In this document: positions 2,250-20,515 of the stretch, piece by piece | How the letters are laid out: every line of letters begins with the position of its first letter | Numbering within the stretch: the first letter of the stretch is position 1 | Origin: an uncultured Sphingomonas sp. | Lineage (GTDB): Bacteria > Pseudomonadota > Alphaproteobacteria > Sphingomonadales > Sphingomonadaceae | Assembly (NCBI RefSeq): GCF_913774285.1 | Contig: NZ_CAJYHX010000008.1 | Span: 62,001-126,000, forward strand | Direction of reading: 5' to 3' | DNA length: 64,000 nt | Notes under the pieces: model-generated | Told to the model about the DNA's origin: nothing | What the model saw: the letters and a program-made list of their open reading frames with translations, nothing else | Databases searched by the model: none | Translations under genes and position numbers: made by a program

Positions 2250-3137
2250 ATGCAGAGCAACGAACGTCAGAGCCTCTACGGCGAGGTGACCGCCCGGATC
2301 ATCGCGGAGCTGGAGCAAGGCCGGTTGCCGTGGGTACAGCCCTGGGATGCGGCGCGGTGCCCCTGTACCATGCCGAGGAACGCCGTATCGGCCCGAGCCT
2401 ATTCGGGGATCAATGTGCTGATCCTGTGGGCGGCGGCGATCGATGGCGGCTATGCTGGCCAGCGCTGGCTGACCTACCGGCAGGCCGAAGCGGCGGGCGG
2501 GCACGTTCGGCGCGGCGAAAAGGGCACGGTGGTCTGCTATGCGGACCGCTTCACCCCGAAGGACGAGGCCGAGAAGGCCCAAGGCGAAGACCGGGAGGCG
2601 CGGACCATTGCCTTTCTGAAGCGCTTCACCGTGTTCAATGTCGACCAGTGCGACGGCCTGCCCGAGGCGATGACCAGCATTCCGGTTCTGCCCGATCCCG
2701 TTTTGGCGATTGCCGAGGCGGATCGGGTGATTGCAGCCAGCGGCGCGGATTTCCGGATCGGCGGGAGCGAGGCCTATTATTCGCCATTGCAGGACGTCGT
2801 GCAGGTGCCGCCGCAGGCCGCCTTCCATGATCCAGTGAACTGGTACCGGACGGCGCTGCACGAGCTTGGCCATTTCACCGGCCATCGGAGCCGCTTGGAC
2901 CGCGACCAGTCCGGTGCCTTCGGATCGGCGTCGTACGCAAAAGAGGAACTCGTCGCGGAAATGTCGGCCGCGTTCACCTGCGCGTCTCTCGGCATTGTGC
3001 CCAGCGTCCGGCACAGCGACTATATCGGGTCGTGGCTCGCGGTGCTGCGCGGTGACGAGAAGGCGATCTTCCGGGCTGCCAGTGCGGCGAGCAAGGCGGC
3101 GGACTTCCTCCTTTCCGGTGGGGAGGCACGGTCATGA
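2250..3137 (+). CDS. ardC: ArdC-like anti-restriction / zincin metallopeptidase-domain protein
   Basis: This 295-residue protein has an N-terminal ssDNA-binding ArdC/DUF1738-type domain (MQSNERQSLYGEVTARII) and a C-terminal zincin-like domain carrying the zinc motif HELGHFTGH near residue 208. ArdC proteins enter the recipient with transferred single-stranded DNA and protect it from restriction. The ATG at 2250 is preferred over the one at 2223 because AGGAAGGAG at 2234-2242 sits 7 nt before it. The stop overlaps the start of the next gene as ATGA, indicating translational coupling. Location beside transfer genes and a type I restriction gene fits the role. Confidence 0.87.
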   Translation: MQSNERQSLYGEVTARIIAELEQGRLPWVQPWDAARCPCTMPRNAVSARAYSGINVLILWAAAIDGGYAGQRWLTYRQAEAAGGHVRRGEKGTVVCYADRFTPKDEAEKAQGEDREARTIAFLKRFTVFNVDQCDGLPEAMTSIPVLPDPVLAIAEADRVIAASGADFRIGGSEAYYSPLQDVVQVPPQAAFHDPVNWYRTALHELGHFTGHRSRLDRDQSGAFGSASYAKEELVAEMSAAFTCASLGIVPSVRHSDYIGSWLAVLRGDEKAIFRAASAASKAADFLLSGGEARS

Positions 3138-3379
3138 CCGGGCGGCTTCCACCCCATGTCTTCCGACGCCGGGGCTTTCGTGCCCTTCGTCGGATGACCG
3201 AGCGGCAGCGCGCGATCTTCTGGGCGATGCGGTTCGAGGAGATCGACTATCCGACGCTTGGGCGACGCCACGGCATCAGCGCGGAGGAAGTGGAGGCGGA
3301 ATTTGCTGCCGCCCTCACCCTTTTCATGCGGATCATCGATACGCCGGAACCGTGGTGGCGCCGGCTTTGGCCTTGGTGA
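3134..3379 (+). CDS. Small sigma-factor region 4-like HTH protein
   Basis: This is an 81-residue basic protein. The segment from residue 21 (MTERQRAIFWAMRFEEIDY) through the predicted recognition part (LGRRHGISAEEVEAEF) resembles sigma-70 region 4, the helix-turn-helix that contacts the -35 element. No region 2 is present, so it cannot act as a complete sigma factor. It starts inside the ardC stop codon (ATGA), so the two are co-translated. Likely a transcription regulator of the element; the exact target is unknown. The C-terminus is Trp-rich (WWRRLWPW). Confidence 0.72.
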   Translation: MTGRLPPHVFRRRGFRALRRMTERQRAIFWAMRFEEIDYPTLGRRHGISAEEVEAEFAAALTLFMRIIDTPEPWWRRLWPW

Positions 3380-3456
3380 TCGCCGGCATTCGAACAGACC
3401 GCTTGCCGCCGGGTGGCTTGCCATCGGGCGGCAAGCCCGACAGGGTAGCTTCCGCC

Positions 3457-4386
3457 ATGCGCAGCAATCTCGATCATCTTCCGCCTGCCAAGCAGCGCGA
3501 GCTGGAGCGCGTGGTGCAGATCGTCTTCGAGGAATTCGATGACGCCTTCGCCCTCGCCAGCCACGAGTGGAAGAAGAAGGGCCGCATCCTCAAGGTCATC
3601 CTGTACGGCAGCTACGCGCGCGGCAACTGGATCGACGAGCCGCATACCGCCAAAGGCTACAAGTCCGATTATGACCTGCTGATCATCGTCAACGACAAGC
3701 GCCTGACCGACCGCATCAAATATTGGGCGAATGTCGATGATCGGCTGATGCGCGAATTTGGCATCACCGGCAGCATCAAGACCCCCGTCAATTTCATCGT
3801 TCACAGCCTGCAGGAGGTGAACGACGGGCTCGCCCATGGCCGCTATTTCTTCATGGACGTCGCCCGCGACGGCATCGCGCTCTACCAGAGCGACAAGAGC
3901 GAGCTGCACCAGCCCAAGCCGAAGTCGCCGCATGCGGCGCTCACCTTGGCGAAGGAGTATTACGACGAGTGGTTTCCCAGCGCGCTGGTCTATTTGGCAA
4001 CTGCTCGCGATCTCGTCGCCCAAGGACGAACCAAAGAGCCGGCGTTCATCCTTCACCAGTCCGCCGAGCGCCTATATCACTGCGTCCTATTGGTGGTGAC
4101 CTTCTACACGCCGCACGTTCACAATCTGGCCTTCCTGCGTACCCAAGCCGAACGACTTGACGCGCGCCTGACGCATGTCTGGCCCGGCGACAACCGCAAG
4201 CAGCGTGGCATGTTCGAGAAGCTCAAGGAAGCCTATGTGAAGGCGCGATATTCGAAGCATTACCGGATCAGCATCGAGGAGCTGACTTGGCTCGTAGAGC
4301 GGGTCGAGGAACTGGGCCGCGTCGTGCAAGAAATTTGCTCGGAGCGCATCGCCCAGCTGGAGGCGACCGCACGGAATGCAGGATGA
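3457..4386 (+). CDS. Fused nucleotidyltransferase-HEPN protein
   Basis: This 309-residue protein has two parts. Residues about 40-130 form a polymerase-beta-type nucleotidyltransferase with GSYARG and, about ten residues on, SDYDLLIIV (the G-S...D-x-D metal-binding pattern). Residues about 165-300 form an all-helical HEPN domain (KEYYDEWFPSALVYLATARD). As separate genes, MNT and HEPN modules make a toxin-antitoxin pair in which the nucleotidyltransferase AMPylates the HEPN RNase; here both lie in one chain. The ATG at 3457 begins the recognisable protein; the frame is open upstream but there it is antisense or out-of-frame relative to ardC. No strong ribosome site is visible. Whether it acts as toxin, defence or housekeeping factor cannot be told. 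Confidence 0.82.
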   Translation: MRSNLDHLPPAKQRELERVVQIVFEEFDDAFALASHEWKKKGRILKVILYGSYARGNWIDEPHTAKGYKSDYDLLIIVNDKRLTDRIKYWANVDDRLMREFGITGSIKTPVNFIVHSLQEVNDGLAHGRYFFMDVARDGIALYQSDKSELHQPKPKSPHAALTLAKEYYDEWFPSALVYLATARDLVAQGRTKEPAFILHQSAERLYHCVLLVVTFYTPHVHNLAFLRTQAERLDARLTHVWPGDNRKQRGMFEKLKEAYVKARYSKHYRISIEELTWLVERVEELGRVVQEICSERIAQLEATARNAG

Positions 4387-5941: not shown

Positions 5942-5969
5942 AGGGCGCGCTTATACGTCGTGCCGACGT
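5942..5969 (-). other. oriT: oriT: nic-like site with adjacent inverted repeat
   Basis: In the traC-traA gap the minus strand reads TAAGCGCGCCCT (5953-5942), one base different from the TAAGTGCGCCCT core of RSF1010/Ti-class nic sites. One base upstream on that strand is a perfect 6-bp inverted repeat ACGTCG/CGACGT with a 3-nt loop (5955-5960 and 5964-5969). Inverted repeat followed by nic core is the architecture of MobQ-family origins, and the neighbouring TraA is a MobQ-type relaxase. The nick would be expected inside the GCG|CCC part by analogy. Position and layout are seen; function is inferred. Confidence 0.75.
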
Positions 5970-5998
5970 GCACTTTTAGGCGTATCTGGTGCGTCGTC

Positions 5999-8833
5999 AT
6001 GGCGATCTACCACTTCTCGGCCAAAGTCATGTCCCGCGCTGCCGGATCGAGCGCAGTGGCGGCTGCGGCCTATCGGTCGGCATCACGGCTGCACGATCAG
6101 CGGCTAGGCCGGGACCATGACTTCTCCAACAAGGCCGGCGTCGTGCACAGCGAAGTGCTGCTGCCCGAGAACGCGCCCGAGGCGTGGCGCGACCGCGAGC
6201 CGCTGTGGAACGCTGTCGAGGCCGCCGAGCTGCGCAAGGACGCGCAGCTGGCCCGCGAAATCGAGTTCGCCCTTCCACGCGAGATGCAGCAGGCCGATGG
6301 TATTGGACTAGCTCGGTCGTTCGTCCAGCGCGAATTCGTCGATCGCGGCATGGTCGCCGATCTCAATGTCCATTGGGATATCGGCGCCGATGGACTGGTG
6401 AAGCCCCATGCGCATGTGATGCTGGGACTTCGCGGTGTCAGCGAAAATGGGTTCGGCGCGAAGGTCCGCGACTGGAACCGGACCGAGCTGCTGACCCACT
6501 GGCGCGGAGCCTGGGCGGAGCACGTCAATCAGCGCCTCGCCGAACTCGATATCGACGCGCGGGTCGATCACCGCAGCCTGGAAGCGCAGGGCATCGATCT
6601 GGAGCCCCAGCACAAGATCGGCCCCGCCGCGTCGCGCATGGTGACGCAGGGGCGTTTCAGCGAGCGGCTCGAAGAACATCACGCCATCGCCCTCACCAAT
6701 GGCGAGAAGATCCTTGGCAATCCCAGCATCGCGCTCGACGCGATCACCCACAACCAGGCAACCTTCACCACCCGCGATCTGGCGATGTTCGTGCACCGGC
6801 ATAGCGAGGGGAAGGACCAGTTCGACCAGGTGATGGCGGCGGTGCGAGCATCGCCCGAGCTGGTGAACCTGGGCAAGGACGGGCGCGGCGACGATCGCTT
6901 TACCTCACGCGCGATGCTGGAAACCGAACAGCGGCTCCAACACGCCACTGCGACGCTCGATGCGCGCCGTCACCATGCGGTTGCCGAGCGCCATCTGGAA
7001 CGCGCGCTCGGCGTCGCCGAACAGCGCGGGCTTCGCCTCTCGCCCGAACAGCGTGGCGCGCTGGAGCAGGTGACCGCCGCGAGGGGCATCAGCAGCGTCA
7101 TCGGCTATGCCGGCACCGGCAAGAGCGCGATGCTCGGCGTCGCACGTGAGGCGTGGGAAAAGGCGGGCTATTTTATTCACGGCGCGGCGTTGTCCGGCAT
7201 CGCCGCGGAGAATCTGGAAAGCGGCTCGGGCATCGCGTCGCGCACCATCGCCAGTCTGGAGCATCAATGGGGCCAGGGTCGCGAGTTGCTGACCGACAAA
7301 TCCGTCCTCGTCATCGACGAGGCCGGGATGATCGGCACGCGGCAGATGGAGCGCATTATCCGCGAAGCAGAGAAGCGCGGCGCGAAGGTCGTGCTGGTCG
7401 GCGATCCGCAACAGCTCCAGGCGATCGAAGCGGGTGCTGCGTTCCGCTCGATTGCCGAGCGGCATGGCGCTGTGGAAATCACCACCATCCGCCGCCAGTC
7501 CGAAGACTGGCAGCGCGATGCAACACGACAGCTCGCGACCGGCCGCACCGCCGAAGCGCTGGCCGCCTATACGGAGGCTGGCCATGTCCATGCCGCCGAG
7601 ACGCGCGAAGCTGCTCGTGAGGTGCTGATCGAACGCTGGGACAACGACCGGCAGGCTGCCCCGGAGACCAGCCGCATCATCCTCATCCACACCAATGACG
7701 AAGTGCGCGAGTTGAACACGGCAGCGCGTGACCGGATGCGGGCGGCGCAGATGCTGGGCAGCGACGTTGATCTCGTCGTCGAACGGGGACGCCGATCGTT
7801 TGCGGCGGGCGACCGCATCATGTTCCTCAAGAATGAGCGCAGCCTGGAGGTGAAGAACGGCACGCTGGGCACGATCGAACAGGTCAGCGGAATCGCGATG
7901 CGCGTGCGCACCGATGACGGGCGAAGTGTCGCCTTCGACCTCAAGGATTATGCCCATGTCGATCACGGCTATGCCGCGACCATCCACAAGGCGCAGGGTA
8001 TGACCGTCGACCGTGTCCATGTGCTCGCAACGCCGGGGCTGGACCGTCACGCTGCCTATGTCGCGCTGTCGCGTCATCGGGAGCGTGTCGATCTGCATTA
8101 TGGCCGGGATGATTTCGCCGATGCCGGGCGGCTGGCCCGCACGCTGGCGCGCGAACGCGGGAAGGACATGGCGTCGGACTATACCCGCGCGCCCGACGTG
8201 CAGCCGGCGCTATCGCCAGCGCCGACCCCGCCCCGTCGCGGGATGTTCGACGGGCTGAAGCTCAGCAGCGCGCCAATCCGCATGCCGACCCGGCCCAGTC
8301 CGCTCGAACAGGCGGTGCAGCGATTTGGCCGGGCGGCGCAGGACATCGTCGGCATGAAGCGTCAGGGCTTCGAGCCCCTGCCCCACCAGCGCGAAGCCTT
8401 TGGCAGCGCCCGCAAGGAGATCGAGGCACTTCGCCCCGGCGGCGGCGAAGACATGCGCGTCGCGATGAACAAGGACCCTGCCCTTATCAGCGAAGCCGCG
8501 AATGGCCGCACCTGTCGCGCTATCCAGGCGATGATCGCCGAGGGCGAAATCCGCATCGATGCCGCCAACCGCGCCGACCGCTTCGTCGCCGATTGGCAGA
8601 ACAAGGCGCAGCAGCTGAAAACTCTGGAGCGGAGCGGCGATTACGATGCCGCGCGGTCCACCAGGGATGCCATGACCACGATGGCCAAAGCGCTCCACCG
8701 CGACCCCCAGCTCGAGTCGCTGCTGCGCAATCGCGCACTGGAGCTGGGTTTGAAGTCTCAGGGTGGCGCGTCGATGTCTCACGACCTCCACGAATGGCTC
8801 GGCCGCTCGCGCGGCCTCAACATTGGGATGTAG
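5999..8833 (+). CDS. traA: Ti-type conjugative relaxase-helicase TraA
   Basis: This 944-residue protein nicks oriT, stays bound to the 5' end and unwinds the strand for transfer. The N-terminal MobA/MobL relaxase has the start MAIYHFSAKV, the catalytic tyrosine expected at Y25 (AAAAYRSAS) and the metal-binding histidines H125, H137 and H139 (KPHAHVML). A RecD/TraI-like helicase follows, with Walker A GYAGTGKSAM near residue 370, Walker B LVIDEAGMIG, and the late motif TIHKAQGMTVD. The ATG at 5999 is the family-standard start; upstream codons would enter oriT. It is shorter than the roughly 1100-residue Agrobacterium TraA, mainly in the C-terminus. DUF6118 follows 10 bp on. Confidence 0.93.
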   Translation: MAIYHFSAKVMSRAAGSSAVAAAAYRSASRLHDQRLGRDHDFSNKAGVVHSEVLLPENAPEAWRDREPLWNAVEAAELRKDAQLAREIEFALPREMQQADGIGLARSFVQREFVDRGMVADLNVHWDIGADGLVKPHAHVMLGLRGVSENGFGAKVRDWNRTELLTHWRGAWAEHVNQRLAELDIDARVDHRSLEAQGIDLEPQHKIGPAASRMVTQGRFSERLEEHHAIALTNGEKILGNPSIALDAITHNQATFTTRDLAMFVHRHSEGKDQFDQVMAAVRASPELVNLGKDGRGDDRFTSRAMLETEQRLQHATATLDARRHHAVAERHLERALGVAEQRGLRLSPEQRGALEQVTAARGISSVIGYAGTGKSAMLGVAREAWEKAGYFIHGAALSGIAAENLESGSGIASRTIASLEHQWGQGRELLTDKSVLVIDEAGMIGTRQMERIIREAEKRGAKVVLVGDPQQLQAIEAGAAFRSIAERHGAVEITTIRRQSEDWQRDATRQLATGRTAEALAAYTEAGHVHAAETREAAREVLIERWDNDRQAAPETSRIILIHTNDEVRELNTAARDRMRAAQMLGSDVDLVVERGRRSFAAGDRIMFLKNERSLEVKNGTLGTIEQVSGIAMRVRTDDGRSVAFDLKDYAHVDHGYAATIHKAQGMTVDRVHVLATPGLDRHAAYVALSRHRERVDLHYGRDDFADAGRLARTLARERGKDMASDYTRAPDVQPALSPAPTPPRRGMFDGLKLSSAPIRMPTRPSPLEQAVQRFGRAAQDIVGMKRQGFEPLPHQREAFGSARKEIEALRPGGGEDMRVAMNKDPALISEAANGRTCRAIQAMIAEGEIRIDAANRADRFVADWQNKAQQLKTLERSGDYDAARSTRDAMTTMAKALHRDPQLESLLRNRALELGLKSQGGASMSHDLHEWLGRSRGLNIGM

Positions 8834-8843
8834 GCTCGCGCGC

Positions 8844-9419
8844 ATGAACGATATTTCCCGCCAATATGGCATCGCCGATGATCCCACCCAGGCCTTCGAA
8901 AGCCTGCGGCAGGAGATTTCGCTCCTCCACACAGCCATCCAGGGACTGACCGCCGCGCGCGAGAAAATACCGGATTACAGCCCGACGCTGGGCGCCATCA
9001 GTCGGCAGCTCGCCGCAGTGACCGAAGGCATCGCCCGCATCGAGCAGGCACCGGCCGTGAAACTTACCCCATCCATGATGGTCCAGCAGCTGGCGAAGGC
9101 GGCGGCCGATGCGAGGGCGGATGATAAGCGTCAGATGGATGACGCGCGTGCCGACCTACATAAAGTGATCGGACGGATGGATGGGCTAGTCGTTCGGGCG
9201 CGGTCGACCGATCTCCAGCGTAAGCGCGAGCTACGGATGATGCTCGGCGCATTCCTCTTCGGGATTCTGCTTTGGTCTTTCTTGCCAGGGGTGGTGGCGC
9301 GGTCTCTTCCCGGCAGCTGGCATGTACCGCAGTGGATGGCGGCGCGGACGCTGGGGACGGAACACGCCACTCGCGATAATCGCGTCGCCGACAATGACCA
9401 CATACCTGAGAAAAATTGA
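8844..9419 (+). CDS. DUF6118 family membrane protein
   Basis: A 191-residue protein: a helical N-terminus (MNDISRQYGIADDPTQAFES), probable coiled coil up to about residue 125, one membrane segment near residues 133-152 (MLGAFLFGILLWSFLPGVVA), and a short polar tail. DUF6118 genes regularly follow traA in sphingomonad mobile elements, and this one begins 10 bp after the traA stop. The function is unknown; a membrane-anchored accessory of transfer is a reasonable guess. Confidence 0.78.
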   Translation: MNDISRQYGIADDPTQAFESLRQEISLLHTAIQGLTAAREKIPDYSPTLGAISRQLAAVTEGIARIEQAPAVKLTPSMMVQQLAKAAADARADDKRQMDDARADLHKVIGRMDGLVVRARSTDLQRKRELRMMLGAFLFGILLWSFLPGVVARSLPGSWHVPQWMAARTLGTEHATRDNRVADNDHIPEKN

Positions 9420-9836
9420 CTGCCTCTGGGACCAAACACCTAGCCACCCTCGCTTGCGACCGGCTCTGCCCGACACGTTGAAGCCGAAACGAAAGCTTCC
9501 CGCTCTGTTGGGGACCAGGCAGGCGATCGTGCACCATGGACCGAAGCCGTTAGCCATGCCCCACTCCGCGAGACCTTAAGAAAACCACCCTTTAACGCTA
9601 CCTGGCGAAATTGGTGCGGCTTAAACGGACGCTCTGCCTGCATGGTTGGCAAATCCAAGTGTTTGGCGCATTAGGGTGATTAAGAAAGGTTCTCCTATAT
9701 GCGATCAACATTACCCTTGTTCAGTGAAACTGTAACCAAATCTAGTTTTAGGAGCAGGATAAAATTTTACAGGCGAAGCCTTCTTTTGAGCTCGAACTTG
9801 ATCGGGGCCAGCCAATTATTGAAAGGCGAGTTTGAC
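9420..9836. other. Intergenic stretch, base composition changes
   Basis: No gene is seen. The left part is GC-rich like its neighbours; from about 9560 on the DNA becomes clearly more AT-rich, continuous with the following gene. It should hold the promoter of that gene. The ribosome site AAGGCGAG is at 9823-9830. No repeat or hairpin of note was found. Confidence 0.5.
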
Positions 9837-11348
9837 ATGCTCAAGCCAGACGTGTCATTTGGAACGTCGGCCGCGATTGCAGCCCGTTACAGGTTTGCTA
9901 AACCAGAAGAATTGAGGAAGGTACTATATCAATTCTGCATCGACCTTGACATAGATGAACCAATTTCCATCGCCCTAATGGAAGAAAACAAAGTATTCCA
10001 CAGCAATCTTGTGAAGTTCCTTGAAAATCGCAAAGAATACTTCGCTCCCAGCCCAGCACGGGATTCCCTAGGTCAATCGGCAGCCAACTTTATGGCGGCG
10101 CAGAGTTTCTCACTACTGTTTGACATCGATAACTTTGAAGCAGGAGGCGCTATCTCGGTTCCCCTGGTGCACAAGGTCATGCAGCTTGGCGCTCACGGCC
10201 TCTACCAGCTCGGATGCGCGCAGTTCGAGTCACTGGCGCAGGTCGCCGTTGATATCGCTGAGTGGATTTGCCACAGCCGATACGGCAAGGTGGTTCTTAT
10301 TGAGGCTCCACTTGGGAATACGGTGCCCGTTGCCGTCCTTGCAAGTGTACTTCGTACAAAGGGGGTCATTGTCGATGTCGTAGAATGGGGATGCCCGCGC
10401 AATGATCGCGCTCTTCTTGGGAATACAGTAGCGATTTCGGCTAAAGACCTAGCGACAATCGATTTGATCAAAGAAGCCTCGTTCGTCGTTTACATCGACG
10501 ATGCTATCACAGGAAGTCGCTTCAGCAAAATGGCTGAAGCCCTTCGCAGGGAAATCGGCGCGTCAAGATTTGGAGCGATTGCCCTGCGCGTCCGCATGAA
10601 CGCTAGCGCCGTGCGCGAGACTAGACATGTCCGAGATCTTACTAAGATAAAGCGATGGGCCAATGAAATCGGCATGCCATTCGGTGTAGAAGTTCTTCCT
10701 GACATGCCTCTATTTAACATAGACAGTCACTTGCCAGCTTTGCTTAGCACTCCTTTGGCATGGGGAGACGCCGGGCACGCCGCAGGAAAAAAGAAGATCA
10801 ATCTCCTATTTTATATGATCGATCGATTCGAAGCCATTAGCAAAGAACTTGGTCGAGCTGGGCATAGCGAAGCGAGAGACTTCCTGCACAAACATATTTG
10901 GAGTGAGGATGTAAATGGTGCACAATGGATGGTTTTACCCCATGTGGCTGAAGAAATGCATCGCAGAATAATTAATTCACTTCCGTCCGATTTCTTTGCT
11001 AAAATTCGAGACTCGGCGAAGCGTAATTTCCCTGATGATTACCTGGGCAGGGCAGTTACCATTGCTGAGCTAAGGACACGATCTGACTGGCTAGCATTTT
11101 GTATCCGCGATGCTGCTCTTGAATACATTGGCTCTGAAGACGCCAATTTTTTAAATCGTGCCGTCAACAATCTCAGCCAAGCCGGCTATACGGCAGGGTT
11201 AGACGCGCCGCCTAGAGACCATGATTATGGCCTCTACACTGTTCCGTTAAGTTCCGGTGAAGATATTCTCCATCGCGAGCTGGTACGGCTAACCGTGGCG
11301 CATGCCTCGACGCTTTCTGCACGACTACGCCATAAAGATAATCCATAA
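9837..11348 (+). CDS. Unrecognised protein with phosphoribosyltransferase-type motif, AT-rich
   Basis: I do not recognise this 503-residue protein as a named family. Residues about 172-240 look like a type I phosphoribosyltransferase core: a beta strand VVLIEAPLGN, then at 217-226 VVYIDDAITG, matching the hydrophobic-DDxxTTG pattern that binds PRPP, with Asp221-Asp222. The N-terminal 150 and C-terminal 250 residues are mostly predicted helix. No signal or membrane segment is seen. The ATG at 9837 has AAGGCGAG six nt upstream; the frame is open to an ATG at 9699. Codon use is visibly more AT-rich than the neighbours, indicating recent import. It lies beside the HNH/NACHT operon in a convergent arrangement and is probably also accessory or defence cargo. 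Confidence 0.6.
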   Translation: MLKPDVSFGTSAAIAARYRFAKPEELRKVLYQFCIDLDIDEPISIALMEENKVFHSNLVKFLENRKEYFAPSPARDSLGQSAANFMAAQSFSLLFDIDNFEAGGAISVPLVHKVMQLGAHGLYQLGCAQFESLAQVAVDIAEWICHSRYGKVVLIEAPLGNTVPVAVLASVLRTKGVIVDVVEWGCPRNDRALLGNTVAISAKDLATIDLIKEASFVVYIDDAITGSRFSKMAEALRREIGASRFGAIALRVRMNASAVRETRHVRDLTKIKRWANEIGMPFGVEVLPDMPLFNIDSHLPALLSTPLAWGDAGHAAGKKKINLLFYMIDRFEAISKELGRAGHSEARDFLHKHIWSEDVNGAQWMVLPHVAEEMHRRIINSLPSDFFAKIRDSAKRNFPDDYLGRAVTIAELRTRSDWLAFCIRDAALEYIGSEDANFLNRAVNNLSQAGYTAGLDAPPRDHDYGLYTVPLSSGEDILHRELVRLTVAHASTLSARLRHKDNP

Positions 11349-11690
11349 TAAGGGATGATATAAACCGACCTTCCGGGCGCAGCACCGGAGCGGCGTATAT
11401 TGGTCGACTGCTGCCGGAAGTGGGAGGACGTGCATTGGGACGAAGCCGTCGTTCGTGAGGGTGGCCGTGAAGGTCGGGTTTCGGTTAAACCTAAGGTTTG
11501 CGACCACCCGACGGTTGGCTGAGAACGACCGACGCTGGGCAGGTTGCGGACTGTCACGTTTTGGGCAATCGTTTTGCGAAAGCTGCCATAATCTCTGCTG
11601 CTCCAATACTCGCGCGGAGGCGTCCCACGAAGCAACGCCTATGGTCTCGATGGCGCGGCGTAATGGTAGATCGAGCGCATTGTGGGATAT
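11349..11690. other. Intergenic stretch between convergent cargo genes
   Basis: This lies between the ends of two converging genes. Short open frames on both strands have no protein-like composition and no ribosome sites. Clauses such as GGGCAGGTTGCGGACTGTC recall degenerate intergenic repeats of sphingomonads, but I cannot prove a repeat within this window. No convincing terminator hairpin was found. Confidence 0.4.
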
Positions 11691-12653
11691 CTAGGACACT
11701 CCGGCGCCGCCAGCAACGGGCAAGGTTCCCGCGAACTGGACGACAAATTGGTTGAACCATGCCGCTGCCATTGATGAGTAAGGCGCATCATCAGCTTTGG
11801 CAGCCTTTATCTCCGCAAGAGTGCGGTCGCGCAGCAGGCGCAGCCGTGTCGCGACGCCCGCCGCCGGTGTTCCTGCGAGCTTGACCGCGACCGCAGGCTC
11901 TTCGAGCTCTTGGATCGATGCGGCAAGATCAATCACCATGTCACCGAGGTATTCGAGACGACGCAGTAACCGGGTTCGATCCTCGACGAGCTTCTGGCGA
12001 TTAAGACCGTAGACTTGAATAGACACGGCTCCGCGTTCGGCCTGGGCTTGCGGCCCCGTTGGCAAAATCAGCCCGGCGGGATGATTGGGGTCGAAGCTGT
12101 AGGCGAGGCTAGCCGCTGGATCGTCAATGCACGGATTGAGCAAGAGCGCATGTTCGCCGCTGAAATCGGTCGCATCGTAAATCGCCCGTGCGCCGGTTCC
12201 TGCAAGCGGGAAGCTATCCTTCTTACCGGCCTGTCTGCTGATCGGCTTCGAGGTACGGGCAAGTTCTTCCAGGTTGGTCGAGACCACGAAGACCTGCTGC
12301 CCGCGTTTCCGATTACAATCGATGCAACTGGGGAGGAGATTTGCCCAGTCCATCGCTAACCACCAATAACCGCCATGCGCGGCGTCTTCAGCAACGGCGC
12401 CCTTGGGACGATAGTGTTCGATGTCCACTGGCGCCGTCGCCGCATAGGATGTTTCGCAATAGGCGCATTTGCCGTGAAACAGGAGCTCCAGCGCAAGGCG
12501 GACATCGGCGCGCTTGTACGCCTTATATTCGAACGCCTTCTTGGGGGACGGTTCGTTGCGATGCGCGATCGCATCCGCGAGTTCTTTCGGTCCGGCTGCA
12601 CCCGGCAGCATCGATTTGGGAGTATCGACCGTGTCGCGTTCAACCTTGCGCAT
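11691..12653 (-). CDS. HNH endonuclease (TIGR02646 / PtuB-like)
   Basis: This 320-residue protein has an HNH zinc nuclease core at residues 63-114: CAYC (63-66), DIEHYRPKG with His80, then WANLLPSCIDCNRKRG with Asn105 and Cys110/Cys113. This pattern is that of HNH proteins paired with an ABC-type ATPase in Septu (PtuB) and in some retrons. It is the last gene of a minus-strand operon, starting 2 bp after the stop of the HNH-ATPase gene. The C-terminal half is helical and unassigned. All nuclease residues are intact, so it is probably the DNA- or RNA-cutting effector of the system. Confidence 0.85.
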   Translation of the reverse strand: MRKVERDTVDTPKSMLPGAAGPKELADAIAHRNEPSPKKAFEYKAYKRADVRLALELLFHGKCAYCETSYAATAPVDIEHYRPKGAVAEDAAHGGYWWLAMDWANLLPSCIDCNRKRGQQVFVVSTNLEELARTSKPISRQAGKKDSFPLAGTGARAIYDATDFSGEHALLLNPCIDDPAASLAYSFDPNHPAGLILPTGPQAQAERGAVSIQVYGLNRQKLVEDRTRLLRRLEYLGDMVIDLAASIQELEEPAVAVKLAGTPAAGVATRLRLLRDRTLAEIKAAKADDAPYSSMAAAWFNQFVVQFAGTLPVAGGAGVS

Positions 12654-12655
12654 TG

Positions 12656-14989
12656 TTAAATAGTCTCCAGGGCGCGCAGGATGTCGGCCTTGGCTTCGGC
12701 ACGCAGTTTCGCCAAGGTCTTGCTGCTCGCGTCGCGGCGGTTCTTTAGATAATCCGCCACTGCGCTTTGAACGAGTTGGTGGATTTCACTCGAGCCGACC
12801 GGTAGTGCGCTGGCGATATCTTCCTCGAATTTCTTCAACACAGCTGCGTCGCTGCCGCTCAAAGCGTTGGCACGCTTGTCGCGGATCAGCTCGGCGATAT
12901 GCGCGAGCCGACGGTCGGAATCGGCATCATCACTCGACAGCAGTTGAAAGAAGTCAGAGGTTAGCAACTGCTCGATACGCAGGGTAGCGACCTCGGGCAG
13001 GTCCGGGATTTGTTCGACCAGGATCGGCAGGTTGCTCGCCTGATCGCTGTCGGACGCAGCAACGCGCTGAAGCACGCAAACCTCGCCTTCTCCCATTCCA
13101 CGCAAGCAGAGCGGATCATGGGTCGTGACGATGAATGTCATGCCTGGCAATGCGCTGCGCAAGCTGGTCATCACCTGCACTTTCCAGCGCGGATGGAGGT
13201 GCGCCTCAATCTCGTCGATCAGCACAATGCCCTGCGCGGTCTCGAAGCTCTCGAACTTTTCATAGACCTGCGGATCTAGAAGCCCGCGCATGATGTCACA
13301 CACCATCGCCAGCATCGAGCGGTAGCCCGACGAGACCGACTGCAGCGGCGCCCTGTTGAACCTCACTTCGCCATCCGGATCGGTAATCGACGTGACCATG
13401 CGCAGCTGGCTGCCGACCTTCTGAATCACATCGAACTTGCCCTCGATCGAAAGCAGATCATGGAGAGTGCGGATCACCAGATTGAATGTGTCGGCAGGCA
13501 GGCTCTTCAGCCATGGTTCGGGATTGGAGAGCGTGCTACCGTCGAACAGATTGCGGATATGCTTGTGCGGCGCCGCACGACGCGTCTGCGTCAGATAGCG
13601 CCGAAACGCACCATAGGCGAATACCGGCACTTGCTGATTTCCGAATTCACTGCGGACAATGGGCGAGCCCTGATCGATCATTAGTCTAACTGACTGATCG
13701 TTGACCAGCGTGACCCTCACCTCAGCGCGCTTTGGACTGTCGCGTCGTTCCCCGCCCATTTGCGATGCATCGAGCACCAGGCTCGACCATGGAATATCAA
13801 GCGCGGTACGCGCTGGCCCGCTCGCGAGCGCGAGCGCGATCCCTTCTAGGATCGAGCTTTTGCCGGTGGCGTTCTCGCCGAGAATGACGAGCGATGGCGC
13901 ATTTGGTCCCGGTGCCTCAGGGTTCGGCTGCCGGGGTGCCGTGAACTTCAGGTGAAGCTTCTCAATTGCCTTGAAGTTAGTCAGTTCGACTTCTGAGATC
14001 GGCGTGCGCAGCGAGTAAATCGACGCAAGTCTCCAGCGACCGGAGCGCAGGCCTTCGTCCTCTCGAGCCATGGCGGCGAGGGCATTTTGCACAACATCGG
14101 TTGCGTCGTCGGTGGCGCTGAGCCGTATGAAGAAAGCGCGGATAAATTTGCGAGACGTGCGCCAGCGCACCCCCCTCGACCCGCCGACCCAACGCGCGAT
14201 CCGGCGCAGCATCAGGAACCAACTGCCGCCGAATTCCATCGCATTGAAATCGAACAAAGCCTGCCAGTCCTCGGCATCGGCGTTTGGCGCCTCTTCGGCG
14301 ACCAGGGTCAGCAGCCGATCGATCCGCTCCGCGTAGATCTGGTAGCGCTGACCTCTGCGCTCTTCGCGGTTGAGGTCATAGACCGCCGTGGTGATCTCAC
14401 CACGGCGGGATTCGCCTACGATCTCGCCGTTGAGCTTAGGAATGAGATGCCGCTCAAACCCCCAGTCTTGCACGGGATCGAGGAGGAGCGGTTCTTCCTT
14501 GGGCGGAAACGATGGCCACAATCCGTCGCCGCGCTCGAGATAGTTGTTGATCTGGCGTTTTTGCGGGAGCTGTGTGCGCTCACCTGCAATCGGAAACTGC
14601 GTTTCCAACGGCAGACAGCCTCGGCAGATCGGATAAAGGTTCTGCCATGCATCGGACAGCCATAAGTAATAGAGATGCGCGATGTTCTTGTTGTCGGACA
14701 GCGGTAGCGCATTGCCGGACGGGCGAAAGCGGTGTGCGATCAGATCGTCTCGGGCCTCGCAGAACGCGCATTTCGCCGCCGACATGTCAGCCAGCGCGTC
14801 AACGAGTTCACTGTCATCACTCCGCAGGCCGGGCGGAGGAACCGGTGACTGGGCACGCTGCGAGGGCGGCAAAGCGAAGAACGCCCGCATGCGTTCGCGC
14901 CCCGCGATTGCAGCCTTTGAACGGAGAACGGTCGGGACGTTGTCAGGACGTTCAATCTGTTGCACCTGCCCCTCCCATTCAATCGTCAC
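12656..14989 (-). CDS. ABC-type ATPase with N-terminal HNH-like zinc module (PtuA-like)
   Basis: This 777-residue protein has an N-terminal Cys4/HNH-like part at residues 74-125 (CAFC, IAHRFRPSG with His86, WQNLYPICRGC with Asn117) and a C-terminal SMC/ABC-like ATPase: Walker A GENATGKSS (371-379), signature-like SVSSGYRSML (551-560), Walker B IVLIDEIEAHLHP (588-600) and H-loop TTHDPL (622-627). Septu PtuA proteins share the ATPase type; the extra HNH-like front end is unusual. The start is GTG at 14989, overlapping the NACHT gene by 11 nt, so the two are translationally coupled. The third catalytic HNH residue is not obvious, so the N-terminal module may bind rather than cut. Confidence 0.83.
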   Translation of the reverse strand: MTIEWEGQVQQIERPDNVPTVLRSKAAIAGRERMRAFFALPPSQRAQSPVPPPGLRSDDSELVDALADMSAAKCAFCEARDDLIAHRFRPSGNALPLSDNKNIAHLYYLWLSDAWQNLYPICRGCLPLETQFPIAGERTQLPQKRQINNYLERGDGLWPSFPPKEEPLLLDPVQDWGFERHLIPKLNGEIVGESRRGEITTAVYDLNREERRGQRYQIYAERIDRLLTLVAEEAPNADAEDWQALFDFNAMEFGGSWFLMLRRIARWVGGSRGVRWRTSRKFIRAFFIRLSATDDATDVVQNALAAMAREDEGLRSGRWRLASIYSLRTPISEVELTNFKAIEKLHLKFTAPRQPNPEAPGPNAPSLVILGENATGKSSILEGIALALASGPARTALDIPWSSLVLDASQMGGERRDSPKRAEVRVTLVNDQSVRLMIDQGSPIVRSEFGNQQVPVFAYGAFRRYLTQTRRAAPHKHIRNLFDGSTLSNPEPWLKSLPADTFNLVIRTLHDLLSIEGKFDVIQKVGSQLRMVTSITDPDGEVRFNRAPLQSVSSGYRSMLAMVCDIMRGLLDPQVYEKFESFETAQGIVLIDEIEAHLHPRWKVQVMTSLRSALPGMTFIVTTHDPLCLRGMGEGEVCVLQRVAASDSDQASNLPILVEQIPDLPEVATLRIEQLLTSDFFQLLSSDDADSDRRLAHIAELIRDKRANALSGSDAAVLKKFEEDIASALPVGSSEIHQLVQSAVADYLKNRRDASSKTLAKLRAEAKADILRALETI

Positions 14990-17900
14990 GCGAGCCTAAA
15001 CGTCGCGCCAGCGCAGCCACATTATCTACACTCCATGCCGCAAGATCGCCGTCGGCGACCGCGTGCGAGTAGGCATAACCTGCCATCGTATCCCGGTAGC
15101 GCGGTACGGGGTGCGTCTCGGCAAGTTCACGGATCGCATCATAGGCCATCGGGCCGGGAATCTGGTCTAGCAGCTGGAACAGACGCTCGCGCGCATCCTG
15201 AGCGTCATCTCGAGCATTGGGTGAGTAGACTCCGGTGCCGGCGCGATGCAGGTCGTCCGCTACCGGGATTTCGCGGTGCATCAGCAGGTAAAGCTGCTTG
15301 AGATATGTCGGCGTCTTGAAAAGCCCGAAGCTATGCGTCGGACTGGTATCGCTCCGCCCCCCCAGCAGCGCATTCACGAACGCCATTGCGAACCGAAGGT
15401 TGTCGGCAAGCGTACCACCCGCGAGGAGGCGATCGAGCGACGCAACGGCCGCCCCCGGCTCGCTGTCGACCCATATTGCGTACCAAGTCGGCCGTTGGTC
15501 ATCAGGTGTCGCGCTATCCGCCAATTTTTGACGGGCGAGCAAGGCGACATCGAAGGATGTAGCACCCTTTCCGCTCATGACGATAGTGCGCAGATAGCGC
15601 AGCGTGCCGAGGCTTGGTGCCTGACTTACCTTCAGCCAGTCGAACAGAGGCGCTGCCAAATCGGCATGGAGCCACGGCGCGTAATAGACGAGTTTGCTCA
15701 GCACATAGTGGAGCGCTTCGTTGGCAGGCGTGTTAGAAAGTTCCCACGCAATCTCTGTCCAGATGAATTCGAACCCAAGTTTGGGCCGAGACCGATAAAG
15801 CGTCTGAAACCAGCGTGGAAATCCGTTTAGCTCCCACATCGCATAGCGCAATGCGCGACGAACATGCGGGACGCTAAGGTTGGCCGCGGCGCCCTTGATC
15901 GACAGTTCGATATCGAGGCCCGCCATGGCGAAGATCAACGCATAGGGAATTTGATTGGTGTCGGCGCCTTCCGAGCGCAGTCCGGGCTTGTACCCACGCC
16001 AAAATGCGATCGCTGCGTCACGATAAGCTTCGGCGACGTCGCGACCAAACTCTGGAATCAGCGAAGTCCAGTTGGAGCCTTGCGCGCGACTTTCACGCAG
16101 CCCCTCGCCCTCCACCAAGCGCAGCAGATTATAGTGGATCCGCGCGAATTGCCCTTGTTTGATACCCGGGGGGTTGCGCACCCGACCGGAATCGGCGGTG
16201 AGTTCAGCAACGAACATCGCGCGATTGCGTTTCTCGCGGCGCTCTCGCTTTGCGCGCTCCCGCTGATGCCGGCGCTCCCAAGCCGCATGCTGCCGGCTCG
16301 ATTCCGTCTCCGGCGGGGCGACTTTCGCTGCCAGCGCAGCCTCAAGCACTGGGTCGCCGCTGACTACGGCCTTCATCGCTGCCAGCCAAGTGTCAGGCCG
16401 ACCGTTCTGCACGTAAGTCGTAAACGAGCGTGCCAGGGCAACCTGCCGGTCGTCGGGAAGTTCGCGCGAGGTCACCCAAGCGAGCGTGCGGTCGAAGCTG
16501 GGGCCATCGAAAAACCAGAAATGGCCGATAAAGTTGATCGGCCAGTCATCGGTAAGTTGACCGCCAGTCGCGCTCTTCGCCGCCCGATAGGCGGCGACGG
16601 TATGCCAGAAGAGCGCATCGTTTAGTGCGGTCCATGCCGGCACCAAAACATCGACGGTGGATTTGCGTTCCTGATAATCGTCTGCGCGCCAGAACCGCAG
16701 CGCCGGCACCGACGCAAGAATGAACAAAGCTGACTCGGACATCGCATATGCAGAGCGAAGCGTAATGAGCCGTTCGACGATGTGGAGCGCGGGGCTCATA
16801 AGCCACTGGAATTCTTCAGACACGTGACATTCGCCGCGCTCGACATATGGGGGTCGCTCGAACAACCTGCGAAAGCCGTCTGCCAGTTGTCCGATCACTC
16901 CGCCGGTCGCCTCTCCGCCATCCATCTGAGCGCGCTCGATGAAGTGGTTGATCGCGTGCGTGAGGCCTGTCGCTTCGAACTGCTCCCGGGCTTCCAGACG
17001 TTCGATTGATGCAAGCAACAGGTCGACCGACTCTCGATCGACTACGGCATATTCGGCGAACTCGGCTAGCAACCGGCGCGGCATCGCCCCCCTGTTCGCA
17101 TTCACCGCAGCCCAGAGCGCATGAATTTGATCGGCGCTGCCAATCGTGGCAACTGCGCGAACCGATACAAGGCGCGCGTAAATACCACGCGTCGAGTCCG
17201 CCGCGACAGCAATCAGCGGGGGCAGGCAAGAAGCTAGTTCACCTTGCCAGACGAGCCGGCCGAGCACGAAGATCGCATCGTCGTTTTCGCGATACCTTTC
17301 TATCAGAGTCAGGACGAACCCTTCCAGGTCAGTCTGCGCAATGCGCGCGATGGCAGCATTGTCGAGGCCGTGCATCAGCGAGGCCGGGTCGACTACATGT
17401 TGCATGAGCGTCGCCAGCAGGGCTTCACGCGGCGCAAGCTCGAGGCTCGCGGCGTCGCCGCCCTCGATCGCGACTTCGGGATGCATTTTCAAAACACGCT
17501 CGCGGACGATGGCATCGAACAGGATCAGCCACGGTAACAACGGGCGGAGGCGCGGCGTGAGCGTGTCTACACCATAGGGCGCAGCGTAAATCAGTCTTTC
17601 GATCTCTGCACGCCCAACATCGTTGCTGAATTGCGTGCTGGCCCACTCGGCGGCTAACAGATCGCGGACTTCGCGGTGACGAAAACGCACCTCACCGAAA
17701 ACCGGATCGCCGAACACACCGCTCCCCAGCAGCAGGCTGATCCTCGGTTTGTCCCACCGCGACAGCAAGGGTTCAGCGTCTATTGCTCCCTGGCCGCCTA
17801 GCCCTGGCAAACGGATGTTGGATTTGCCAGTCAGGCTAGTTGCGATCGCCAATAGTCGTGCGGCAGCAAGCGCCGCTTCGTGCTGCTGGTCACCTAAACT

Positions 17901-18854
17901 GGCATCCCTCAGCAGACGCCGTACGCTTCCGCGCAACACATCAAGACGATTGCCAAGAGCTCCATCGGTGGCCCACGCCTCAATCAGATCGCGCAAATCG
18001 AATGGCGAACGTGCCAGCGCGAGCAGATTGCGATGCTCCAACGCTGCCAAGAACGCATCAAGGTCGGGGATCCCAGCGGCCGCAGCAAACTGGCGGATAT
18101 CGTCATCGCTAAGTGGTGCCAGGATATAGACCGACAATTCGCCTTTGGGCGCGTCGCCGCTGTCACTGTTCCCGTCTCCGCTGGTCTGAAGGGGATGGTC
18201 GTCGCCCTGATTGTCCTCTTCAGGCGCTTCTACACCGCGCTCAACGACATCGACCGCGCCAGCCACTCCGTCGAAACCGCCGTCGTCCTCGTCGTCGCTA
18301 GTACCGCCAAGCTTCTGCTCGACGAGCGGCTGGTGCGGCAGTATCTCGTTGACGAGAGCACGGTCCAGAGACGTTCGCCACGCATAGGGCCGACTGGTGA
18401 TGTAGATGTGCGCCCGCTGGAGCGCGCCTGCCAGCCGGTTAGCGAACGCCCGTATCGCAGCTTCGAACGCGCGAGGCTCAGACAGGCGTAATTCGTCGAC
18501 GGAATCGAGGAAGAACCATGCTTCGCCCGAGCCGGTCAACCAAGTCTCGAACGCGTCCGTCGAGCCGATCTCGAACGCTTCGCCGAATGCCGCATTGATA
18601 TCCTCCAGCCTTAGGAAAAAGGCCAATTTTCCCAGGCTCAACTGCTGTATCGCCGCGCCGCGCAGCTCGTGCGTCTTGCCCGCGCCGGCGTCGGCCAAGA
18701 TTATCACGCGGTACTCGCCGAGCAAATTAGCCCAACGCTTGCGCTCTCCCCGCGACAAGCCCGGCCACAGTTCCTCGATCGGCACATCCTCTGCTTGATA
18801 AGGTGATGGAACGGGCGTGAAATGTCGGGCGATGGGAACAGCGTCACTTATCAT
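14979..18854 (-). CDS. NACHT/STAND-like NTPase, large
   Basis: This 1291-residue protein has a P-loop signalling NTPase at its very N-terminus: Walker A ILADAGAGKT (52-61), Walker B FFLDSVDELRLS (114-125), sensor ITSRPYAW (152-159). A strongly acidic low-complexity insert lies at about 185-245. The remaining 1000 residues are helical-repeat-like, the usual sensor part of STAND proteins. There is no effector domain in front of the NTPase, so output may come from the HNH partners. The ATG at 18854 follows AAAGGCGG by 8 nt; a TTG at 18878 in the same frame has no clear ribosome site. It is first gene of the three-gene operon. NACHT-type ATPases are known phage sensors in bacteria; the sensed molecule here is unknown. 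Confidence 0.8.
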   Translation of the reverse strand: MISDAVPIARHFTPVPSPYQAEDVPIEELWPGLSRGERKRWANLLGEYRVIILADAGAGKTHELRGAAIQQLSLGKLAFFLRLEDINAAFGEAFEIGSTDAFETWLTGSGEAWFFLDSVDELRLSEPRAFEAAIRAFANRLAGALQRAHIYITSRPYAWRTSLDRALVNEILPHQPLVEQKLGGTSDDEDDGGFDGVAGAVDVVERGVEAPEEDNQGDDHPLQTSGDGNSDSGDAPKGELSVYILAPLSDDDIRQFAAAAGIPDLDAFLAALEHRNLLALARSPFDLRDLIEAWATDGALGNRLDVLRGSVRRLLRDASLGDQQHEAALAAARLLAIATSLTGKSNIRLPGLGGQGAIDAEPLLSRWDKPRISLLLGSGVFGDPVFGEVRFRHREVRDLLAAEWASTQFSNDVGRAEIERLIYAAPYGVDTLTPRLRPLLPWLILFDAIVRERVLKMHPEVAIEGGDAASLELAPREALLATLMQHVVDPASLMHGLDNAAIARIAQTDLEGFVLTLIERYRENDDAIFVLGRLVWQGELASCLPPLIAVAADSTRGIYARLVSVRAVATIGSADQIHALWAAVNANRGAMPRRLLAEFAEYAVVDRESVDLLLASIERLEAREQFEATGLTHAINHFIERAQMDGGEATGGVIGQLADGFRRLFERPPYVERGECHVSEEFQWLMSPALHIVERLITLRSAYAMSESALFILASVPALRFWRADDYQERKSTVDVLVPAWTALNDALFWHTVAAYRAAKSATGGQLTDDWPINFIGHFWFFDGPSFDRTLAWVTSRELPDDRQVALARSFTTYVQNGRPDTWLAAMKAVVSGDPVLEAALAAKVAPPETESSRQHAAWERRHQRERAKRERREKRNRAMFVAELTADSGRVRNPPGIKQGQFARIHYNLLRLVEGEGLRESRAQGSNWTSLIPEFGRDVAEAYRDAAIAFWRGYKPGLRSEGADTNQIPYALIFAMAGLDIELSIKGAAANLSVPHVRRALRYAMWELNGFPRWFQTLYRSRPKLGFEFIWTEIAWELSNTPANEALHYVLSKLVYYAPWLHADLAAPLFDWLKVSQAPSLGTLRYLRTIVMSGKGATSFDVALLARQKLADSATPDDQRPTWYAIWVDSEPGAAVASLDRLLAGGTLADNLRFAMAFVNALLGGRSDTSPTHSFGLFKTPTYLKQLYLLMHREIPVADDLHRAGTGVYSPNARDDAQDARERLFQLLDQIPGPMAYDAIRELAETHPVPRYRDTMAGYAYSHAVADGDLAAWSVDNVAALARRLGSRDD

Positions 18855-20007
18855 CTCGGCAACCGCCTTTTTGGGCAAGCGTAACCATTGACGTGGGCGC
18901 GCACCGCCGTGTTCAATCGGGCGTCGTTGCGCCTCTTCCTTTCACTCTGCACTGCTCTGTTTCCCCAACTCCGTCACAACCTAACATCTTCGCGCGTGGT
19001 GACCAGACAGGACGTCAAATTTCCACCAAATTGGGATATTCTAGTTAAGCTTCTGCGTCATCGATTGCGTACAAGCTATTGCGGGCTGCCGATTTTAGAC
19101 TCTGGATCCACAGCGGATCCACCCGCTCGCGTTCTTGCGCGAGTGACTCGAGCGGAGGAAGATGACCACTGGAAGGAACTGCAGCGCGTCGCGGACGGAC
19201 GCTGGTGAGATCTCGCAAGCATCGTGCCGATCCGCCATAAGCCCGGCTCAGCCAAGATGTCCTGCAACCGACTCCCCATGCCAAACTTCATAGGTCGGCT
19301 TGTTGGCCCCGTTCAGCGCCTCGATGCCGTCAGGTTGCGCTTTGGCGCATTCTGGCTCGAAACGACACGGCGGCAGCTTTTGAGCTTCCGCCGAACGGCG
19401 CGAACGGCCGATGTTGAAACGCAAAGCCGACCGGCTGGTTCGCGCAATACGAATGGCGGATTTCAGCGAGAGCCGGCACTCACGTCAATGACGCTGGATG
19501 TCTTGAGCTGGTCGGTCGCGGCGGTGCAGAACTGCGGCACACGCTTCTGAAAATTTCCGTGCCGCAATGAAACCGCATTCCGGCTATTCTTCCAGGAAGG
19601 CATTTTCCACGCTTGTGCTTCGAACCCGATTTACAGAAAGGGAGTGGGGCCACCCGCTAGGGCCAAATTTTTCGCTGCAGCGCAGTATTTCTCGCTGTTT
19701 CAATAGGTTGCAATCGCGTTTCGATTCCCTTCACCGCTCCATTTCGCGATCCCAAGGAATCCCATAGCCTTTTGTAAGTCGCGGTAATTTCGGCGTTGCG
19801 GGGCGCGTACTCATCGCCCGTTCTTCCCCACAGGATGTCATCACCCAGGCGCCTGCGAAGGCCGGGTCCGCAGGAGGCTTCAGCGCTTGCGCCCCCTCCC
19901 CGCTGGATCGTGAGGATCAGCCGAACAGGGAGGGCGATCGCTGCGGCGGCTTCCTCGGGCTGGGCGGGCGATGCCGACGCGAACATCGAGGCGCGATCGA
20001 CGTTCGA
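18855..20007. other. Gene-free stretch at the probable element-chromosome junction
   Basis: About 1.15 kb with no convincing gene. Short frames on both strands (for example 19224-19550 plus, 19657-19986 minus) lack ribosome sites, family signatures and codon bias. The left end should carry the promoter of the NACHT operon. The right end joins normal chromosomal genes. A stretch near 19720-19745 resembles a tRNA 3' end but does not fold (see rejected items). No integrase, direct repeat or IS end was recognised. Confidence 0.45.
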
Positions 20008-20400
20008 TCACAGCCACCCGAGTGCGCGGAAGCTGACGACGTGATCGCTGCCGATCACCAAATGGTCGAGCAGGCGAACATCCACCGGATCCAGTGCCAC
20101 GAGCAGCCGCCGGGTCGTCGCGCGGTCGGCCGCGCTCGGCTGCGGATCGCCACTCGGATGATTATGCGCCATCACCACGCCGGCGGCGTCGAAGGCCAGC
20201 GCGTCCGCCACCACCTGCCGCACCGGGACATCGACAGCATCCACCTCGCCGCCGTGCATGTGCCGCATGCCGAGCAGGCGGCCATCGCGCGCCAGATAGG
20301 CGAAGGCGGCGATTTCGCTGCGTGCTTCTGCCAGGCCGCCAAACAGCGCACGCGCGGCGCCGAAGTCCAGGATATACGGTTCCGGAGAAACAACCGACAT
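20008..20400 (-). CDS. JAB (RadC-like) domain protein, short
   Basis: This 130-residue protein consists of the JAB/MPN metalloprotease-like domain of RadC with the metal motif [13 protein letters not shown] near residues 77-89. The helix-hairpin-helix N-terminus of full RadC (about 220 residues) is absent. It begins [16 protein letters not shown] and is divergent from thyA with 115 bp between starts. RadC-like proteins occur in housekeeping and mobile contexts and have no firmly established function. It could be the first chromosomal gene beyond the element or a relic of it. Confidence 0.8.
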
Positions 20401-20515
20401 GTCCCGGCTTGCCACCCCGTGCCGCCAACGCGAACCGCAACCCGATCCAGTTCGGTTCTCCGAAACGGCGCGAAGCCGGATGACTCGCGCGGCGCTGCCC
20501 GCTAGGTTCCGGACG

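Follow-up and report, generated by a model that had tools for sequence, protein, structure and literature searches.

A NACHT protein lacking its relatives' predicted nuclease is encoded with a Septu PtuAB pair: a candidate three-gene defense system

The window analyzed here, a 64,000-nucleotide stretch of a contig from an uncultured Sphingomonas sp., carries three minus-strand genes in the order NACHT-PtuA-PtuB (11691..18854; Table 1). The same trio is found in four other bacteria, and in all five loci the gene order is kept and the NACHT protein is without the C-terminal tail of its relatives. From this recurrence we consider it probable that the NACHT protein, a receptor without the nuclease of its relatives, senses phage and would switch on the Septu nuclease PtuAB, which would cleave nucleic acid and halt the infected cell. 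We conclude, with the gating of PtuAB read from genome organization alone, that the receptor appears to have lost its own nuclease and would use PtuAB as its effector.

Locus organization

Table 1. Features of the trio (window coordinates)
Feature	Position	Strand	Remark
NACHT STAND NTPase, 1291 aa, HyoA-like, without C-terminal predicted nuclease	14979..18854	-	predicted sensor and switch
NACHT Walker A, LADAGAGKT, residues 53-61	18672..18698	-	
NACHT Walker B, FFLDSVDE, residues 114-121	18492..18515	-	
PtuA, Septu-kind ABC-type ATPase, 769 aa (P0121), conserved start GTG 14965	12656..14965	-	
PtuA N-terminal PtuB-like zinc module, residues 59-236 (777-aa numbering)	14282..14815	-	PDLC00316, 74 bits
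PtuA ATPase module: GENATGKS, SSGYRS, IVLIDEIEAHLHP, TTHDP; ~residues 332-646 (777-aa numbering)	13052..13996	-	
PtuB, HNH endonuclease, 320 aa	11691..12653	-	predicted effector
PtuB intact HNH core CAYCE..EHYRPK..CIDCN, residues 63-114, H80 and N114	12312..12467	-	

The first-pass annotation had described three tightly ordered minus-strand genes; both their existence and their order hold, with a gap of 2 nt between PtuA and PtuB. It had also placed an 11-nt overlap between the NACHT gene and PtuA (14979-14989) by starting PtuA at the GTG at 14989 (777 aa). This is probably the wrong start codon: the conserved start lies 24 nt further downstream, and the overlap was therefore rejected as a sign of coupling. 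The distance from the NACHT stop to the PtuA start is +13 nt in the window and -14, -14, -14, and +19 nt in the four other loci, and PtuB begins 1 to 3 nt past PtuA in all five. The three genes are presumably co-transcribed.

A gene encoding 549 aa with low third-position GC adjoins the trio (window 9699-11348, +). A phosphoribosyltransferase-like stretch was recognized in it by eye; the gene had no Pfam or PADLOC match, and its NCBIfam match was at chance level only.

The NACHT protein and its missing tail

The description of the first product as a NACHT-like STAND NTPase of 1291 residues was confirmed, but the protein is not nameless. It matches the NCBIfam model of the NACHT domain-containing antiphage protein HyoA (NF058534) with 1157 bits, aligned over residues 9-1285, which is 43 bits below the curated cut-off of 1200. 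This cut-off does not separate the forms of the family, since a Fic-linked tail-less relative passes it with 1244.7. The N-terminal NACHT module of the model is present in the window protein; the match stops at model position 1246, with the final 184 positions (about 1246-1430) absent. The protein stops where its relatives bear a tail of ~190 residues, and the tail HMM found no such tail in it.

The NACHT fold match begins at residue 1 and therefore leaves no room for an N-terminal effector; no effector domain was recognized at either end of the protein. With neither N-terminal room nor a tail, its assignment to the effector-bearing bNACHT proteins was rejected. The predicted fold of the protein resembles that of animal inflammasome receptors. 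Its fold matches include Avs4 and EfAvs5, which reflects the common STAND fold only, and it had no match at E up to 0.1 among the models of PADLOC-DB 2023, AVAST/Avs included.

The tail of the relatives is a predicted PD-(D/E)XK nuclease. A residue set of nuclease type, E53, E77, D87, E102-x-K104, Q122, and Y127, is without exception in the 30 tails that were chosen out of 60, and the same set is invariant in the 35 tails first aligned. The structure model of the tail is confident (pLDDT 86.8, pTM 0.85); after realignment, BamHI, OkrAI, EcoT38I, and Can2 are on top of its fold matches, with McrC, EcoRV, and FokI lower.

On a Burkholderia glumae plasmid (L006:6818-12913) the tail is in a separate frame behind an ISNCY transposase gene, and a tail-less relative of 1363 aa (P0037) has a precomputed PF04255 domain, which we take to be DUF433. 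By eye this domain is C-terminal, and it is possibly a further fused partner.

Tail and partner genes among relatives

We compared the best 80 of 134 loci of relatives, counting as partner a gene on the same strand and within 3.5 kb of the NACHT gene. The tail is present in 60 loci, 11 are tail-less and judgeable, and nine are not judgeable (in six the protein is cut at a contig end, in L081 and L083 the contig stops after another 101 and 424 nt, and L077 has an unmatched 264-residue tail). A second count of the 80 loci gave identical classes. Among the tailed loci, 58 have the tail only and two have tail and Fic, the Fic gene being adjacent in L088 (70% identity) and distant in L047 (31%, 1.8 kb off). 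The 11 judgeable tail-less loci have either PtuA and PtuB (four: L020 Sphingobium vermicomposti, L021 Pseudomonas sp. PSB18, L022 P. syringae, and L049 Caulobacter sp. AP07) or Fic (seven: L023, L041, L043, L062, L066, L067, and L069). PtuAB in operon position accompanies 0/60 tailed and 4/11 tail-less loci (Fisher p = 3.4e-4), and one or the other partner is present in 11/11 tail-less versus 2/60 tailed loci (p = 3e-11).

Tail and partner are not strictly exclusive, as seen in L088, L047, and L080. The last of these, a tailed locus, has ~3.6 kb downstream and on the opposite strand a distant PtuA-like gene (29%) with a small gene for a putative HNH protein (L080:16886-18798, -). L083, a distant tail-less member, has no Fic gene upstream, and its next frame before the contig end is not PtuA; it perhaps represents a tail-less form with neither partner. 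L111 (tail) and L113 (Fic), neighboring stretches of one genome, suggest that tail and Fic occur together there as in L088. Both cases possibly represent an intermediate form.

The NACHT protein has no recognized effector domain and its relatives have a predicted nuclease or a partner gene; the earlier proposal of a sensor without an effector of its own, coupled to a Septu-like pair, is therefore the best reading by comparison. The roles might also be reversed, with PtuAB sensing phage as in Septu and activating the NACHT protein as a downstream effector. Septu PtuAB acts without a receptor (PMC13096335), which would suit such an arrangement; however, the tail-less NACHT protein has no recognizable effector domain, and it is with the members lacking the tail that a nuclease or Fic partner is found. 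We regard reversed roles as highly improbable.

Nine tail-less HyoA-like NACHT genes are preceded by a Fic gene (L003:5727-10630, L008, L023, L041, L043, L062, L066, L067, and L069), and in 9/9 tail-less Fic loci checked a 4-nt overlap joins the Fic stop to the NACHT start. The partner is a Pfam Fic protein (L003, L023), and that of L003 matches PADLOC SoFic with 83.7 bits. A Fic protein and a tail-less NACHT protein possibly form a second system of receptor plus borrowed toxin. Since these other tail-less members stand behind a SoFic-related gene, the HyoA-like family appears to recruit otherwise independent defense toxins as exchangeable effectors. In L062, L066, and L067 (about 9001-12713) the NACHT gene is split at about the same place into two overlapping frames (~446 and 790 aa), perhaps a natural two-subunit receptor.

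Distribution and phylogeny of the trio

A search across genomes, which the first-pass annotation had suggested, is the source of the four additional trios; their NACHT-PtuA junctions range from -14 to +19 nt, and their NACHT proteins are 45-56% identical to that of the window. No other gene family is shared between the examined flanks of the five loci (64 flanking ORFs, 0 cross-locus pairs).

Further trios were inferred from longest-contig sizes common to the NACHT and PtuA protein matches, at least 19 such sizes being found among the 120 listed of 647 NACHT matches and the 120 listed of 242 PtuA matches. Among the matches listed, 19/82 tail-less versus 0/38 tailed proteins have a size-matched pairing (p = 7e-4). 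One inferred pair has neighboring locus tags (EON59_03620, EON59_03615), and contig 25121, which is among the 19, is locus L049. The inferred hosts include Blastomonas fulva, Brevundimonas, P. vranovensis, P. aeruginosa, and Rhizobium ruizarguesonis.

A FastTree phylogeny of 174 NACHT proteins places all 24 PtuAB-linked rows in a single 47-row clade (support 100); 19 of these 24 trio labels, here and in the PtuA tree, rest on identical contig sizes and not on adjacency read. These 24 are the rows of the clade with a known context, and no row of it is labeled tailed or Fic. A tail-less clade of 38 rows, one of them a known Fic member, is sister to it; the rhizobial Fic group lies apart. The tree left out the tailed proteins P0091-P0120 and split or short proteins (L062, L066, L067, and loci without a frame >1190 aa). 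Loci without PtuAB or Fic were labeled as tailed, including L018 and L077, which had no tail-HMM match; L047, with tail and distant Fic, was given the same label, and L083 was unlabeled. In the PtuA tree, the trio members again form one group (24 rows, support 100), and the stand-alone plasmid PtuAs fall outside it. The FastTree supports are local values, and several rows are long-branched.

The distances between the NACHT proteins correlate with those between the PtuA proteins (r = 0.93 over 23 trios; 0/2000 shuffles gave a value as high), in a comparison made without L049, the same locus as contig 25121, and with the L020 PtuA cut at a wrong in-frame start. The clustering in the trees and the mirrored distances reflect joint inheritance, not contact.

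These data bear on the alternative that the locus juxtaposes two independent systems, one a Septu pair and the other a HyoA-like protein with an unrecognized effector activity of its own. Septu pairs and HyoA-like proteins each exist alone, and defense genes often cluster. Against this, order and close junctions persist in four loci with NACHT proteins 45-56% identical to that of the window, PtuAB is in operon position beside none of the 60 tailed relatives, the loci have no other neighbor in common, and the trio members form single NACHT and PtuA clades. Independence of the two systems therefore seems quite unlikely to us.

PtuA and PtuB

The Septu-like ATPase/HNH pair of the first-pass annotation is upheld by full-length profile matches of two adjacent genes, PtuA to PDLC00291 (1022 bits) and PtuB to PDLC00329 (404 bits). 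The ATPase motifs of PtuA, including GENATGKS and IVLIDEIE, are intact in the alignment. PtuB had been called an intact HNH nuclease, and its aligned HNH core is indeed complete, with H80 and N114; CxxC, the His of EHYRPK, and CxxCN are kept in the five trio loci. When these five loci were read directly, the active-site motifs of both the PtuA ATPase and PtuB were intact. The N-terminal HNH-like zinc module ascribed to the ABC-type ATPase is present, but its HNH motif is degenerate and the final Asn is absent: the cysteines are kept, the His is kept in the aligned trio members, and the Asn is replaced by Leu, Ile, or Val. We predict that this degenerate module is not a nuclease.

For Septu EcB88, PMC13096335 describes that the Walker motifs of PtuA and the H and N of the PtuB HNH motif are needed and that tRNA-Tyr is cut. 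According to PMC11555353, PtuAB of retron-Eco7 depletes tRNA-Tyr, that of Eco4 does not, and another Septu is reported to target nicked DNA. By analogy, candidate targets of PtuAB in the trio would be tRNA, as for retron-Eco7 and Septu EcB88, or DNA, as for the other Septu.

Ten loci (nine plasmid, one E. coli) hold PtuAB pairs with an HNH-fused PtuA and no NACHT relative, this absence being judged within the stretches examined and, for the E. coli locus, from the two largest other frames only. PtuAB may therefore not need the NACHT protein. In L100, L104, and L105 (Rhizobium and Paracoccus plasmids) a gene for a patatin-like phospholipase directly follows PtuB; for L100 and L105, Pfam confirms this assignment.

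A retron was rejected as identity of the locus: the window's genome (one genome, completeness 99.96) has no RVT_1 match, and window positions 9000-20500 have no match to a known retron RNA family (msr-msd) at E up to 0.5. PtuA has an equivalog score of 99.7 against a cut-off of 500 in the retron type I-A comparison.

The retrons also supply the strongest rival to activation by the NACHT protein, in which the latter would hold a toxic PtuAB silent, as reverse transcriptase (RT) and msDNA do in retron-Eco7, until phage damage or binding frees it. According to PMC11555353, PtuAB of retron-Eco7 and of Eco4 arrests growth if the retron is not expressed with it, and msrmsd and RT neutralize the Eco7 pair. 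The position of the NACHT gene, first in the cluster, would also suit a keeper. However, the fused predicted nuclease or Fic partner of the relatives fits a general activating switch, and stand-alone PtuAB pairs persist without a keeper; we consider silencing an unlikely role for the NACHT protein.

Genomic setting and frequency

Beside the locus are a MobA/MobL relaxase (5960-8833) and an ArdC gene (2223-3137), and an integrase domain is located 7 kb to the left of the window (contig position 54457). The third-position GC of the longest frames is 0.5-0.8, then mostly >0.8 past 20.4 kb. The location inside a conjugative element given at first pass was not borne out: despite the relaxase and the nearby integrase, the contig of the locus has no VirB4 match. 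With VirB4-type matches on another contig only, a conjugative element was rejected as established fact. The setting is consistent with an integrated and probably mobilizable element. Near the relaxase and beside the ArdC-type antirestriction gene is a frame with nucleotidyltransferase and HEPN domains (window 2866-4386, +).

Under the E-value limits set, the HyoA family was found in 9/385 genomes of the class, the NACHT protein in 4/249 of the family and 6/398 of the phylum, and PtuA in 3/396 of the order. No trio outside the window's own genome was seen in these four overlapping surveys (396, 385, 249, and 398 genomes). The trio is rare.

Discussion

Under the reading that we prefer, activation of PtuAB by the NACHT receptor, the NACHT protein would use its long C-terminal half to sense a phage product, the NACHT module would oligomerize on ATP, and the oligomer would activate PtuAB; the activated pair would then cut nucleic acid, with abortive infection as the outcome. 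A bolder version, to which we give somewhat less than even chances, is that an NLR-type receptor has shed its PD-(D/E)XK nuclease and that PtuAB assembles on the activated NACHT wheel in the manner of an inflammasome, the effector being a whole other defense system.

If this is true, PtuAB would be a portable toxin wired in three ways: on its own, controlled by reverse transcriptase and msDNA, or controlled by a NACHT receptor. Sister receptors would do likewise with a SoFic-type Fic toxin.

The trio makes it possible to test how an NLR-like immune receptor may exchange its effector, with one family having three likely outputs, a fused nuclease, PtuAB, and Fic, and with the position of the switch given by a tree. 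It also bears on the modes of PtuAB control. Genome scans aimed at Septu alone, such as PADLOC-DB 2023, which is without a model that matches the NACHT protein, would likely record such loci as ordinary Septu and overlook the receptor.

The first-pass annotation knew of no described system with this combination. No description of the trio turned up in full-text searches combining NACHT with Septu, PtuA, or PtuAB, whose coverage did not extend to most subscription papers, bioRxiv's own preprints, or the paper behind the name HyoA; the NACHT protein itself, however, has this family name.

Comparison with known systems

With HyoA (NF058534) the window protein shares the N-terminal NACHT module and the long C-terminal half; it differs in lacking the last 184 model positions, which are the predicted PD-(D/E)XK nuclease in the relatives, and in having PtuAB as partners. 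The NACHT module is also common to bNACHT25 and other bacterial NLR-related proteins, and a C-terminal sensor would be so by analogy. In a canonical bNACHT the effector domain is N-terminal of the NACHT module, and the window protein is without one. The effector of bNACHT25 is its own N-terminal nuclease, inside the same protein (PMC12169576), whereas the likely effector of the window trio is two separate proteins.

Septu type I, like the trio, has adjacent full-length PtuA and PtuB with intact ATPase and HNH motifs. It is a two-gene system, however, whereas the trio has a NACHT gene in first position that is inherited with the pair; the degenerate N-terminal HNH-like module of the trio PtuA is present in the stand-alone pairs too. 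SoFic stands alone, whereas the SoFic-like Fic partner (the match being that of the L003 protein) is encoded ahead of a HyoA-like NACHT gene, the two genes overlapping by 4 nt. In retron type I-A (Ec78/Eco7, Ec83/Eco4), PtuAB is under the control of a further component, and in the trio the extra component is the NACHT protein.
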